Of a stretch of 20,003 nucleotides of DNA, positions 14,054-18,535 are shown in pieces (position 1 is the first letter of the stretch; each line of letters begins with the position of its first letter). Origin of the DNA: a virus; the IMG/VR virus record IMGVR_UViG_3300017728_000154, positions 1 to 20,003 of that record; one strand, 5' to 3'. The position numbers and the translations under genes are program-made. The notes beneath the pieces were generated by a model that searched no databases, was not told the DNA's origin, and saw only the letters and a program-made list of their open reading frames with translations.

Positions 14054-15420
14054 TCAATATACGAAAGAGTAACCAACCGTGATGAAATCCTTATTAAGGG
14101 TTTCAAAACCGGCGAACAAGCTCCAAATCATGATGATGAAACGTGAGAAATCATCGTTGTTGTTCAACAAGATTTGAGCGTTGTTACCACCAATGCCGAC
14201 GCCGACAGCTTGAGGACCGAAGAAAATCAACTGAGCTGCATCGTAATCAGCAGCGACAGCGGACTCATCAGTAATCGTCAGGTTGTATGACGTTTCGGGA
14301 AGGTTGGTGGACTCGAACCAACGGACACCCTCAAAGAGGAAGCCAGTAGGCATTACAGGTTGACCAGCGACAAAGCCAGCTTGGCCATATGCAGGACCCA
14401 TTCCTTGGAAGAAGTTCGCAGAAGGACCGGCAAGTGGGTTCATGGGATCAGCCATCCCGGTTCCGGGATAACGTGCGATTTCGCGGAAGTCACTGTTCTG
14501 ACGCAGATGCATCATTGCAGTGGGGTCCACGATGCAACGGTAGTAACCATCAGCGAAGGTAGGAACGTTGCGCTTACGCATGTCCTTGACGACTTCGAGA
14601 AGGTCGGTAGTTACATCAAATTTGGCAGACTCACCAGCGGCATACTGAGCAATGTTGGAAGCACCAGCGGCTTTTTCTTTGCCACCGGGAAGGTAGTAAC
14701 CGCCTTGCTCATTCGAAGCCTTGCCAGCGGCCTCAGCCTTAAGCAGTTCGTTTGCAAAGACGCGGTCACGCCAACGACGATAGTCATCAAGCAGCGTCAA
14801 GCTACCGATTGACTGGTGAAATACGTTGAGATTACCGGTATCAAGCAGCAAACGCTGAGCGGTGATCAGGGTCTCGCGAGCTACCTTGAAGGTAGAAGGC
14901 TGAGTGGTATCGCGGGAATCGGCGGGGCCTGTATACTCTCTGAGAGTTACTAGAACCTTGTCCTTAACGATATTGCGTGCGGAAGCGGATCCAAGTGTTT
15001 GGTCGGCTGTCCTTTCACGGGACTCCTTAGTGCCAGGCTTACCCCAGAAGCGGTAACGATCAAGCTGAACAGTTTGACCGGGTTGCTTACTGAAGTCATG
15101 GACAACTACGGGCTCAACTGCCATCTCAATGATGTAGGCAGGATGAGGCCGATACAGTTCAGCACCAAGGAGTTTTGGGAAATCATTCGGTTTATCTAAG
15201 ACTTTCGTCAAAGGCCGGACTATCTCTTCAACAAGATCATCTTGTTGCTGGGCGCTGATCTGGTCTTACGAAACACGCTTGTTTCCCCCAGTAGTCTCTG
15301 CACCTTCCTCACAAGTTCGTGTGAGGCTTGGCTCAGGATTAGCATCGTCTATACGTTAAGCCTTCCCTGAATTCACCCAGTTTTAAATCGACAGGAGAGC
15401 TACACTCTATCGATCCACAT
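14054..15420 (-). CDS. Major capsid protein, gene split by a group I intron
   Basis: Proposed exons are 15420-15409 (MWID) and 15187-14054, in frame, giving 381 residues. The body has the features of HK97-fold capsid proteins of the N4gp56-like kind: GQTVQLDRYRFW, an internal helical region (RRWRDRVFANELLK), CIVDPTAMMHLRQNSDFREIA, GVRWFESTNLPE, then QLIFFGPQAVGVGIGGNN and a closing DFITVGYSFVY. It would form the head shell. Exon 1 has GGAG 10 nt before the ATG and a TATTAT element 22 nt upstream. A simple gene call would start at a TTG at 15211, but that lies inside the intron's predicted P9 stem. Unspliced RNA would stop after six codons. The exon limits are my structural inference; the capsid assignment is firmer. 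Confidence 0.8.
15188..15408 (-). ncRNA. Group I intron (IA-like) at the 5' end of the capsid gene
   Basis: Minus-strand pairings make a full core: P3 CTGGGTG (15380-15374) with CGCCCAG (15254-15248); P4 TCAGG with CCTGA (about 15370-15333); P6 CCTCACA (15326-15320) with TGTGAGG (15313-15307); P7 GACTA (15296-15292) with TAGTC (15222-15218); P7.1/P7.2-type stems CTGG/CCAG and GAAACA/TGTTTC; and P8 CAACAAG/CTTGTTG. The conserved boxes AATCCTGAGCC and GCAGAGACTA are clear. P9 is CTTTGAC-GAAA-GTCTTAG, P9.0 is GG/CC, and the last intron base would be G15188. P1 could pair exon ATCGAT with GTCGAT, putting a U.G pair at the 5' splice site. The intron is about 221 nt and encodes no protein. P7.1/P7.2 extras point to subgroup IA. 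Confidence 0.85.
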
Positions 15421-15442
15421 AGATCGTTAACTCCAAAACTAA

Positions 15443-15448
15443 ATAATA
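15443..15448 (-). promoter_or_regulatory. Probable -10 element of capsid gene, TATTAT
   Basis: TATTAT ends 22 nt before the proposed capsid ATG at 15420, the same spacing as other genes here. The leader carries GGAG 10 nt before the ATG, unlike most promoter-proximal genes. Confidence 0.45.
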
Positions 15449-15452
15449 TATA

Positions 15453-15471
15453 GTGACTTCGACTTAGTCAC
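15453..15471. repeat. Inverted repeat just upstream of capsid -10 element
   Basis: GTGACT and AGTCAC form a 6-bp stem with a 7-nt loop immediately upstream of the TATTAT element. It could be an operator or the end of an HNH-associated insert; the role is unknown. Confidence 0.35.
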
Positions 15472-15525
15472 ATGATTAAATAATAACTGCTATATTTAAC
15501 AGGTAATGTTAATAATCGAAAATCA

Positions 15526-16224
15526 ATGGAAAATACAACGACTGGTTCATTTGTTGACACTAACGAATGGGTTCCAATTCATACACTTCCAGGATTTAAT
15601 GCATGTATTGAGTACTTCATTAATAGGCAGGGTCAAGTCAAGAGCACAAAAGGCAACATTGAGCGTATTCTTAGACCTTGTCTAAATGAACAAGGGTATC
15701 CTCAAGTATCACTCACGCAAAGAATTGGTCGTCAAAAACCAAAGAAAGTGCCTATACATAAATTAGTTGCATTTGCATTTCTTGGACTGCCTCCTACCCC
15801 ATACGGAAGAGGTGCTGGCTGTTGTGTCATACACCATAAAGATGAAGATCCCGCTAATTGCTGTGCTGACAATCTCGAATGGATGACAAATAGTGATCAT
15901 CGATTACATCATGGCGCGTCGCTGCATGAAAGTACATCTTTAGAAACCAACGGTTATTCAGAATCTCATAGAAAATCTCAACGCGAGTACCTAAGAAGAC
16001 GTCGTCAAGACCCTGCATTTTTAGAAGCAGAAAAACTTCAGCAACGTGAACGTCGTGCTGCTAGGACACCTGAAGAGAAAGAAGCTCACTTAGCGCGTGA
16101 ACGTCAACGTGATGCAGTGCGCCGTAAACGTAAATCTCAAGATCCCGATAAACTTGCTAAGAAACGTGAGTATCAACGTCAGTGGATGGCAAACAAAAGA
16201 GCAGAACAAAAGCGGTTAAAATAG
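15526..16224 (+). CDS. HNH homing endonuclease (NUMOD4-HNH)
   Basis: A 232-residue protein. Residues 15-50 (EWVPIHTLPGFNACIEYFIN, then GQVKSTKG) match NUMOD4. Residues 76-129 (VPIHKLVAFAFLGLP, IHHKDEDPANC, NLEWMTNSDHRLHH) match the HNH_3 nuclease core, with H103/H104, N111 and N116 at the expected catalytic and metal positions. The C-terminal 90 residues are a long Arg/Lys/Glu-rich helix likely to bind DNA. It lies outside the intron and on the opposite strand, 105 nt from the capsid start, so it is free-standing. It lacks both the TANAATAG element and a clear Shine-Dalgarno, unlike its neighbours, which fits a recent arrival. The likely target is the nearby intron-free capsid allele. Confidence 0.9.
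   Translation: MENTTTGSFVDTNEWVPIHTLPGFNACIEYFINRQGQVKSTKGNIERILRPCLNEQGYPQVSLTQRIGRQKPKKVPIHKLVAFAFLGLPPTPYGRGAGCCVIHHKDEDPANCCADNLEWMTNSDHRLHHGASLHESTSLETNGYSESHRKSQREYLRRRRQDPAFLEAEKLQQRERRAARTPEEKEAHLARERQRDAVRRKRKSQDPDKLAKKREYQRQWMANKRAEQKRLK
16217..16222 (+). promoter_or_regulatory. -10-only phage promoter, TAAAATAG, inside the end of the HNH gene
   Basis: The hexamer ends exactly 24 nt before the ATG at 16247. The octamer includes the last Lys codon and the stop codon of the HNH gene. Confidence 0.65.
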
Positions 16225-16246: not shown

Positions 16247-16909
16247 ATGGCTGATAGTCTCGTATTAACTGGTGTAAAAGACGTCAGGAAGCACACTGGC
16301 ACTGAGATGCTTCGTCTTAATCCGAAGGGTGGTGGTGATACTTTTCAACTGAAGCGTTGGTGGGTTGCTGGTGGTGTTAGCACCTGCTACGAACCTTGCA
16401 CAGTATTTGATGTGACCACAGCTGCTGGCACTGTGAAGCTTGCACTGGCTACTAAAGCAGAAGGCTCACGTGTTCGTATTGACCACGATGGCTCCTTTAA
16501 CTTCAGCTTCTTTGGTGCTGGTGAAATCAGCCGTGCCTGCCTATTCACTGATGCATTTGAGGTCATCGAGCACTATGTGTTCCCCTCAATCAGTGGTGGA
16601 AAGGTGATGACTGTTACACCACCTGGTGGTGCTAGTCGTCCTTCTGTTACTCCTCCAAAAACCTTCACTGGTGTTACCTTATCCGGTTCTAGTACTGCAA
16701 ATGATTCAGATACTGAAACCTACACTGCTAGTAAGACTGGAACCGCTACTGATGTGACTTATGTCCTCTCTTCAGATGACCCATCTGACGTTGTTAGCAA
16801 CCTAGATGTAACCTTCAGTGGGACAGGTAATCGTGTTTTGACACTAACCGGCTCTTCTACAGAAGTAGGCAACAGTCAGACTGATACCTTGACCGTAACC
16901 ATCAGTTAA
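16247..16909 (+). CDS. 220-aa virion protein with C-terminal Ig-like domain
   Basis: A 220-residue protein. Residues 1-125 are a beta-rich domain (VKDVRKHTGTEMLRLNPKGG, RRIDHDGSFNFSFFGAG-like strands). A Pro/Thr linker (TPPGGASRPSVTPPKTF) leads to residues 135-220, an Ig-like beta-sandwich (TATDVTYVLSSDDPSDVV, then FSGTGNRVLTLTGSS and TDTLTVTIS). Ig-like domains of this kind decorate phage capsids or tails and are thought to bind surface carbohydrate. It is divergent from the capsid gene, with its own TAAAATAG promoter, and its end overlaps the end of the next minus-strand gene by 8 nt. Likely a surface-exposed virion protein; exact position unknown. Confidence 0.75.
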   Translation: MADSLVLTGVKDVRKHTGTEMLRLNPKGGGDTFQLKRWWVAGGVSTCYEPCTVFDVTTAAGTVKLALATKAEGSRVRIDHDGSFNFSFFGAGEISRACLFTDAFEVIEHYVFPSISGGKVMTVTPPGGASRPSVTPPKTFTGVTLSGSSTANDSDTETYTASKTGTATDVTYVLSSDDPSDVVSNLDVTFSGTGNRVLTLTGSSTEVGNSQTDTLTVTIS

Positions 16910-17596: not shown

Positions 17597-18535
17597 TTAG
17601 AGATATTCGCTTACTTGATTACCGTTCTCCTTAAGTCCACGCAAGGCTTTATGCTCTAGTGTGCGGACACGGTCACGGCTCATATTAAGTACTTGTCCAA
17701 TGGCTGTCATTGACATTGGCTCCAAGATATCTTCACCGATACCGTAACGCATACTGATTACGGCAGCTTGCATTTCAGGCAGGTCTCTAATCATTTCACG
17801 CATATCATCTTTAATACATTGACGCTCAAGTATTTTCTCTGGTAACTGGCTTTCGTCCTCAAGCAGGTCAATTAATGCCGTATCACGATTTTCACCAATT
17901 TTAATCTCAAGCGACGTCGGTTGACGAGCCTTACACATCAAGTCTTTGATATCATCGACTGTCAGCTCAAGATGGTCAGACAGCTGAAATACAGACGGCA
18001 TATAACCATTTATCTGTGACAACTCACGCTGTGCTTTCTTCAGTTTGTTTAGGTTCTCAGTAACGTGGATAGGAAGTCTGATGGCACGGGACTTCTCAGC
18101 AATGGCTCTTGTAATACCTTGGCGAATCCACCAATAAGCATAAGTACTAAATTTGTAGCCACGACCAGGGTCAAACTTTTCAACGCCACGGACGAGACCA
18201 ATCGTTCCTTCTTGGATAATGTCCAAGAGTTCCATATTTCTCTTCGTGTACTTTTTGGCAACAGAAACCACGAGTCTGAGGTTAGCGGTAACCATCTTGT
18301 CTTTTGCTTTCTGTCCATCGCGTAACTCTCTTTTAATTGTTTTCAGCGGAATATCCCAAGCCTTTGCTAGTCCTTCATTGTCTAGCTCTAGCTCTTTCTT
18401 TTGTGTCTCTAGTTCCATCAATCGTTGAACTTTACGACCTAACAGAATCTCTTCGTCGTGCTCAAGAAGTGGAATCCTTCCAATGTCACGCAAATATGCA
18501 CGAACTGAATCACCTGAAATCTTTGGTTGCGCCAT
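17597..18535 (-). CDS. Phage-encoded sigma-70 family factor (primary/group 2 type)
   Basis: A 312-residue protein with region 1.2 (DSVRAYLRDIGRIPLLEHDE, 10-29), an intact region 2 (NLRLVVSVAKKYTKR, LLDIIQEGTIGLVRGVEKFD, then GYKFSTYAYWWIRQGITRAI), region 3 and region 4.2 (SMTAIGQVLNMSRDRVRTLE, HKALRGLK). The -10-reading residues of region 2.4 (Gln and Thr in WWIRQGIT) are kept. The FSTYAYWWIRQ and IRLPIHVTENL pattern is like cyanobacterial group 1/2 sigma factors, suggesting capture from a host. It lacks region 1.1. Region 4.2 has Thr-Leu where the primary factor usually has Gln-Ile, so -35 contacts may differ. It would bind host core RNA polymerase and redirect it. It has the only canonical -35/-10 promoter seen here and AAGGA/AGGAG sites before the ATG. 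Confidence 0.95.
   Translation of the reverse strand: MAQPKISGDSVRAYLRDIGRIPLLEHDEEILLGRKVQRLMELETQKKELELDNEGLAKAWDIPLKTIKRELRDGQKAKDKMVTANLRLVVSVAKKYTKRNMELLDIIQEGTIGLVRGVEKFDPGRGYKFSTYAYWWIRQGITRAIAEKSRAIRLPIHVTENLNKLKKAQRELSQINGYMPSVFQLSDHLELTVDDIKDLMCKARQPTSLEIKIGENRDTALIDLLEDESQLPEKILERQCIKDDMREMIRDLPEMQAAVISMRYGIGEDILEPMSMTAIGQVLNMSRDRVRTLEHKALRGLKENGNQVSEYL

Follow-up and report, generated by a model that had tools for sequence, protein, structure and literature searches.

The window examined here is the entire 20,003-base virus record IMGVR_UViG_3300017728_000154. The major capsid gene is encoded by the minus strand in two exons, a four-codon exon 1 (ATG TGG ATC GAT; 15409–15420) and an exon 2 (14054–15187) that reads AAT GAT TTC from 15187 and matched the major head protein family phrog_1357 (E 4.7e-19); the two are contiguous in intronless relatives. 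Upstream, a divergent intergenic region (15421–15525), with a ribosome-binding site and a hairpin, separates the capsid gene from a plus-strand gene (15526–16224) that encodes a free-standing, I-HmuI-like HNH endonuclease of 232 amino acids. Relatives retain the hairpin (15453–15471); they share its AGTCGA loop, and two of the four stem pairs are changed on both sides. A gap of 105 nt separates the start of the HNH gene from that of the capsid gene, in agreement with a preliminary description of this DNA, which had placed the gene outside the intron and in reverse orientation. On its 3′ side is a gene (16247–16909, plus strand) that gave no match in Pfam or PHROG and is a conserved neighbor, with tblastn matches to it found beside the HNH homologue in relatives. 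A sigma-factor gene (phrog_351) is located near the capsid locus, at 17597–18535 of the window, and was also present beside the locus in the related contigs L003 and L013.

The closest cultured match to the capsid protein was a protein of Synechococcus phage S-EIV1 (69.6% identity), the sole cultured relative found, all other relatives being metagenomic contigs. This one cultured relative makes a cyanobacterial host likely, and the virus group as a whole probably infects cyanobacteria.

The intron in the capsid gene

The intron comprises 221 nt (15188–15408, minus strand) directly after capsid codon 4 and was recognized by the Rfam group I model RF00028, which matched at 15446–15196 on the minus strand with 92.1 bits (E 8e-23; cut-off 50 bits). 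About 80 relatives, mostly intronless, read ATG TGG AT(T/C/A) GA(T/C) AA(T/C) GA(T/C) TTT, and this reading fixes exon 1 at 15420–15409, the intron at 15408–15188, and the beginning of exon 2 at 15187. A different junction at the end of the Rfam match, TTAG/ATAAACCG, was dropped because the intronless relatives put the junction 9 nt further, at AAACCG/AATGAT, in frame. The last U of exon 1 can form a U.G pair with the intron guide sequence (AUCGAU with GUCGAU), and the 3′ end of the intron is a G (AAACCG). As previously described, the capsid intron carries no reading frame of its own: no ORF of at least 60 amino acids fell wholly within it. The span formerly given for the paired elements, 15188–16224, begins at the last base of the intron and takes in the intron, exon 1, the intergenic region, and the HNH gene. 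In unspliced RNA a stop codon follows after six codons (ATG TGG ATC GAT AGA GTG TAG), which, together with the four-codon exon 1, indicates that capsid synthesis should depend on splicing. The intron is predicted to be self-splicing and to leave the capsid protein unchanged.

Copies of the intron were 99% identical to that of the window in L013 and L018 and 94% identical in L029, where two stems had changes on both sides. A search with an intron DNA pattern recovered no carriers beyond those already known. The capsid genes of L099, L100, and L159 were interrupted by as many as three group I introns each, including at the 5′ end, with internal sites around residues 33, 44, and 128; the HNH of L159 is dead. 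The jumbo Klebsiella phage Muenster has a 79–80% match to the core of the window intron (L327:2501–2593), with tRNA genes around it and an HNH gene nearby.

HNH homologues and their metal-site residues

The window protein, initially proposed to be of the NUMOD4-HNH type, matched Pfam HNH_3 above the cut-off and NUMOD4 just under it (22.8 bits against 23.4). The family profile matched the I-HmuI structure 1u3e (E 1.7e-11), as did the AlphaFold model of the window protein (pLDDT 89.8) in a Foldseek comparison (E 1.3e-6). Relatives of the protein in cultured phages were all below 60% identity, and S-EIV1 gave no HNH match. D74, H75, and N96 are conserved catalytic residues of I-HmuI (PMC12724721). 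The equivalent residues in the window protein are H103, H104, and H125, position 96 being the ninth residue past the Asn of the NLxW motif, an equation that rests on the 1u3e alignment. With His, not Asp or Asn, at 74 and 96, both of them metal-ligand positions, the activity of the window enzyme is uncertain. In other HNH enzymes, His can act as a metal ligand. N-H occupies the corresponding place in all eight distant HNH relatives, making D or N the usual state.

An HNH homologue with the same placement and orientation was present in 70 of 70 relatives with enough upstream sequence, mostly intronless, from a first sample of 80; loci without one ended no more than 131 nt upstream of the capsid match. 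Because the homologue occurred in every clade member with enough upstream sequence and the intron in few, possession of an HNH gene is not in itself tied to the intron, and presence–absence co-occurrence of gene and intron was uninformative given an HNH homologue ubiquitous in the clade. Nor was the gene optional, in the sense of being present in some members and absent from close relatives; rather, its alleles were swapped. The arrangement of intron and HNH gene together recurred in contigs of several samples. In the 80-kb record of the relative L151 (G001), a group I intron was found at the capsid gene alone, and a second HNH_3 match lay elsewhere, at 55482–55604.

The homologues were of two kinds, a long form with the canonical DH...N...NLxW and mostly a basic tail, and a short form, mostly of 116–135 amino acids, that usually lacks the Asp and ends soon after NLxW. 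The short form that was modelled is without the helix in which position 96 falls. Across 111 alleles, residues 74, 75, and 96 were D, H, and N in 17, N, H, and N in one, and H, H, and H in the window. A last capsid scan and a genome scan, the latter giving four contigs, together yielded at least three new HNH alleles among the matches listed, all dead. Although the short homologue of most relatives is probably nuclease-dead, its median dN/dS of 0.034 over 26 pairs indicates strong purifying selection, such that it is being maintained and is not decaying.

In a sister clade with capsids about 80% identical, the HNH slot was filled, in the records examined, by a LAGLIDADG-type gene together with a companion ORF (L231–L251; L253:962–2198). 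The one copy tested matched Pfam LAGLIDADG_2, and no match to the gene was found among cultured phages. This clade, which is without the HNH, was mostly intronless and had both GAT and GAC at codon 4; its one intron-bearing member, L253, has a site 2 intron and no HNH neighbor. The LAGLIDADG gene was considered as a partner of this intron and dropped, since L244 is intronless despite carrying a nearly identical gene.

HNH allele type and the capsid 5′ end

We compared 111 distinct alleles, treating the capsid site as altered if it had a 5′ intron or a synonymous GAT to GAC change at codon 4, and the HNH as competent if the residues at I-HmuI positions 74, 75, and 96 were kept, with His allowed. 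The window (H/H/H) was thereby counted as competent by choice, and the position-96 criterion was post hoc, having been added after the data were seen. All 19 competent alleles adjoined an altered capsid 5′ end (10 introns and nine GAC), versus seven of the 92 others (p 6e-16), of which 85 had an uninterrupted, plain GAT. Under a simpler D/N-H rule, the site was altered in 21 of 22 alleles versus 5 of 89 (p 6e-17). Ten of the 11 5′ introns adjoined a competent HNH. Hence, the pairing of intron and HNH gene in relatives foreseen in the preliminary description did not hold by presence, where the two were independent, the result it had named as refuting, and did hold by allele.

The idea that the long form goes with an intron or GAC was recorded after the first 80 loci and before later loci were fetched. 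Among the latter, the six intronless D-H alleles that had not been seen before all carried GAC, and the additional 5′ introns of the HNH clade had D-H alleles alongside. The informative alleles of a further scan comprised two that fit (L260 and L263) and two that did not (L258 and L276). Overall, the exceptions were an intron next to a dead HNH (L276), a short D-H form with GAT (L258), and GAC beside either a dead HNH (L035, L207, and L220) or a D-H allele without N at position 96 (L076, L170, and L263). Common descent is a concern in such counts. The trait changed 11–12 times on the capsid DNA tree, on which phylogenetically independent pairs were divided 7:0 (p 0.016, the window being hand-counted as active), or about 6:0 under the plainer rule (median p 0.03). 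In the HNH tree, all active-type alleles were placed in one supported group that also contained 12 Asp-less members from several lineages, none of which had GAC or a 5′ intron.

In 1446 tests along the capsid gene, run on 93 intronless alleles, HNH type was linked most strongly to the third base of codon 4, which lies at the intron junction (p 3.5e-11); codon 5 came next (2e-6), and then values of 1e-4. Capsid starts other than ATG were found in four of 22 D/N-H alleles versus none of 89 others; the codons were ATC in L005 (near 120) and L260, GTG in L022 and L076, and TTG in L107. Judged from the sequences, introns were inserted after codon 4 in the window, L011, L018, L029, and L276, after codon 6 in L003 and L107, and one base into codon 7 in L102, L098, and L253, placing three junctions within 7 nt. 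As a blastn query, the window intron matched no site 2 intron, and therefore at least two intron lineages are present at this spot. A recognition site around codons 4–6 would explain the codon 4 association, the start-codon changes, and the intron positions, and exon 1 is the presumed core of the endonuclease target.

Several comparisons pointed to movement at this locus. L102 (long D-H, with intron) and L258 (short D-H, intronless) have flanks about 94–100% identical and differ in an HNH block and in a precise intron, with some 95 nearly identical bases between the two; the outer edge of the block is the 3′ end of the HNH gene, at the border with the gene found at 16247–16909 in the window. 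A similar HNH swap distinguishes L025 and L004, accompanied by GAC versus GAT. The introns of the window, L013, and L018 were 99–100% identical beside very different HNHs, indicating that transfer of the intron was recent and did not always include the HNH. In exon 2, the window and L018 were 98% identical over the first 100 bases and 87–89% further on, a drop resembling what a short conversion tract would leave. HNH alleles were exchanged freely, both active-type and dead (rho of HNH and capsid distances 0.24 and 0.33); a greater mobility of competent over dead HNHs was considered, and no difference was found.

Proposed mechanism and comparison with known systems

We propose, with a probability of roughly 0.7, that the capsid gene is here a site of collaborative homing, at which an intron or a silent substitution confers self-immunity. 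The HNH protein would act as an I-HmuI-type endonuclease with a recognition site in the first capsid codons, around codons 4–6, and a genome with a competent HNH would have to avoid offering that site. By one route, a group I intron would split the site and be spliced from the mRNA, yielding the same capsid protein; by the other, codon 4 would change silently from GAT to GAC, sometimes together with a changed start codon. In cells infected by both types of virus, an intronless capsid gene with GAT would be cleaved by the enzyme; repair templated on the donor would then transfer the intron and, in some cases, the HNH allele. Collaborative homing as for F-CphI (PMC6083498) would account at once for the competent alleles, the inserted introns, and the silent changes. 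The resemblance to such homing suggested earlier gains good comparative support at the level of alleles, and not as a simple pairing of gene and intron. The sequences themselves establish the intron with its junctions, the HNH family, the link between competent alleles and altered sites, its focus on the junction base, and a nearly isogenic pair of genomes that differ by replacement; that the enzyme cuts, where it does so, that the intron is spliced, and that homing occurs during infection we infer from them.

A pattern of this kind might also arise through linkage only, if ordinary recombination swapped the HNH gene together with the 5′ end of the capsid gene, about 120 nt away, as a haplotype block, with the enzyme cutting elsewhere or nowhere and GAC and introns inherited passively. 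The free exchange of active-type and dead HNH alleles and the confinement of all active-type alleles to a single group of the HNH tree are in line with this explanation, which we nevertheless regard as unlikely: codon 5, three bases off, is associated much more weakly than codon 4, the Asp-less alleles in several separate lineages within the active group have GAT, and the association tracks metal-site residues, not relatedness alone, and persists in independent pairs. The HNH could also target the capsid 5′ end and spread by intronless homing, with introns that came otherwise, via another endonuclease, reverse splicing, or recombination, and were tolerated as one way to lose the site. Near-identical introns next to very different HNHs, the L253 intron without an HNH neighbor, and the extra off-site capsid introns of L099, L100, and L159 (in L159 alongside a dead HNH) agree with this scenario. 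We consider it improbable given that nearly all 5′ introns adjoin a competent HNH, that the insertions cluster within a few bases at the presumed target, and that in the L102–L258 pair the intron and the long HNH occur jointly on a single background. Finally, it is highly improbable that the locus is an assembly chimera or that the HNH is a decayed remnant unlinked to the intron. The window HNH does lack D or N at position 74 and N at 96, and relatives other than S-EIV1 are metagenomic contigs, but the same arrangement is found in contigs from several samples, and both odd positions are His, which random decay would seldom yield twice.

A further, tentative suggestion concerns the short HNH form, which could have been domesticated. 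Bound to the 5′ end of the capsid gene or to the divergent promoter, it might regulate capsid expression or shield the unprotected GAT site from competent invaders. If so, the locus would record a long contest among competent alleles, immunity by intron or silent substitution, and a dead decoy. The locus also offers a homing-endonuclease homologue retained, probably dead, across a phage clade, such that the step from selfish to useful gene is open to study. Few systems of collaborative homing are known; here, approximately 110 natural alleles indicate the presumed target with single-base resolution and suggest that self-immunity can be gained in two ways. We found no published collaborative homing at the capsid gene of this phage group, in a literature covering few subscription journals.

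I-HmuI is an intron-encoded enzyme, located in a DNA polymerase gene. The window HNH shares its family, fold, and HNH motif (PDB 1u3e), and differs in being free-standing and in having a different C-terminal region. The terminase intron of phage ICP1 (PMC10448857) is likewise in an essential phage gene, with the endonuclease gene adjacent and not inside; there, the nuclease belongs to the T5orf172 family and the gene is a terminase, and the available portion of that account contains no allele survey linking catalytic residues to a target base. Introns of major capsid genes have been reported from Cluster J mycobacteriophages, including LittleE, for which splicing was shown (PMC3706429). Unlike the window intron, the LittleE intron carries its own endonuclease-like gene, and a free-standing partner is not described in the part of that source available; a capsid intron in Tuc2009 is cited there as well. 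The most similar system is that of F-CphI and the psbA intron of S-PM2 (PMC6083498), in which a free-standing endonuclease is also next to an intron-bearing gene. That the intron blocks self-cleavage and that the enzyme acts on the intronless allele was shown for F-CphI, and we infer the same here. The F-CphI system involves a photosynthesis gene and an enzyme with an Endo VII motif, whereas the present locus combines a capsid gene with a divergent, upstream, I-HmuI-like HNH, and differs further in the putative immunity route by silent substitution and in the probably dead homologues that have become fixed in relatives.
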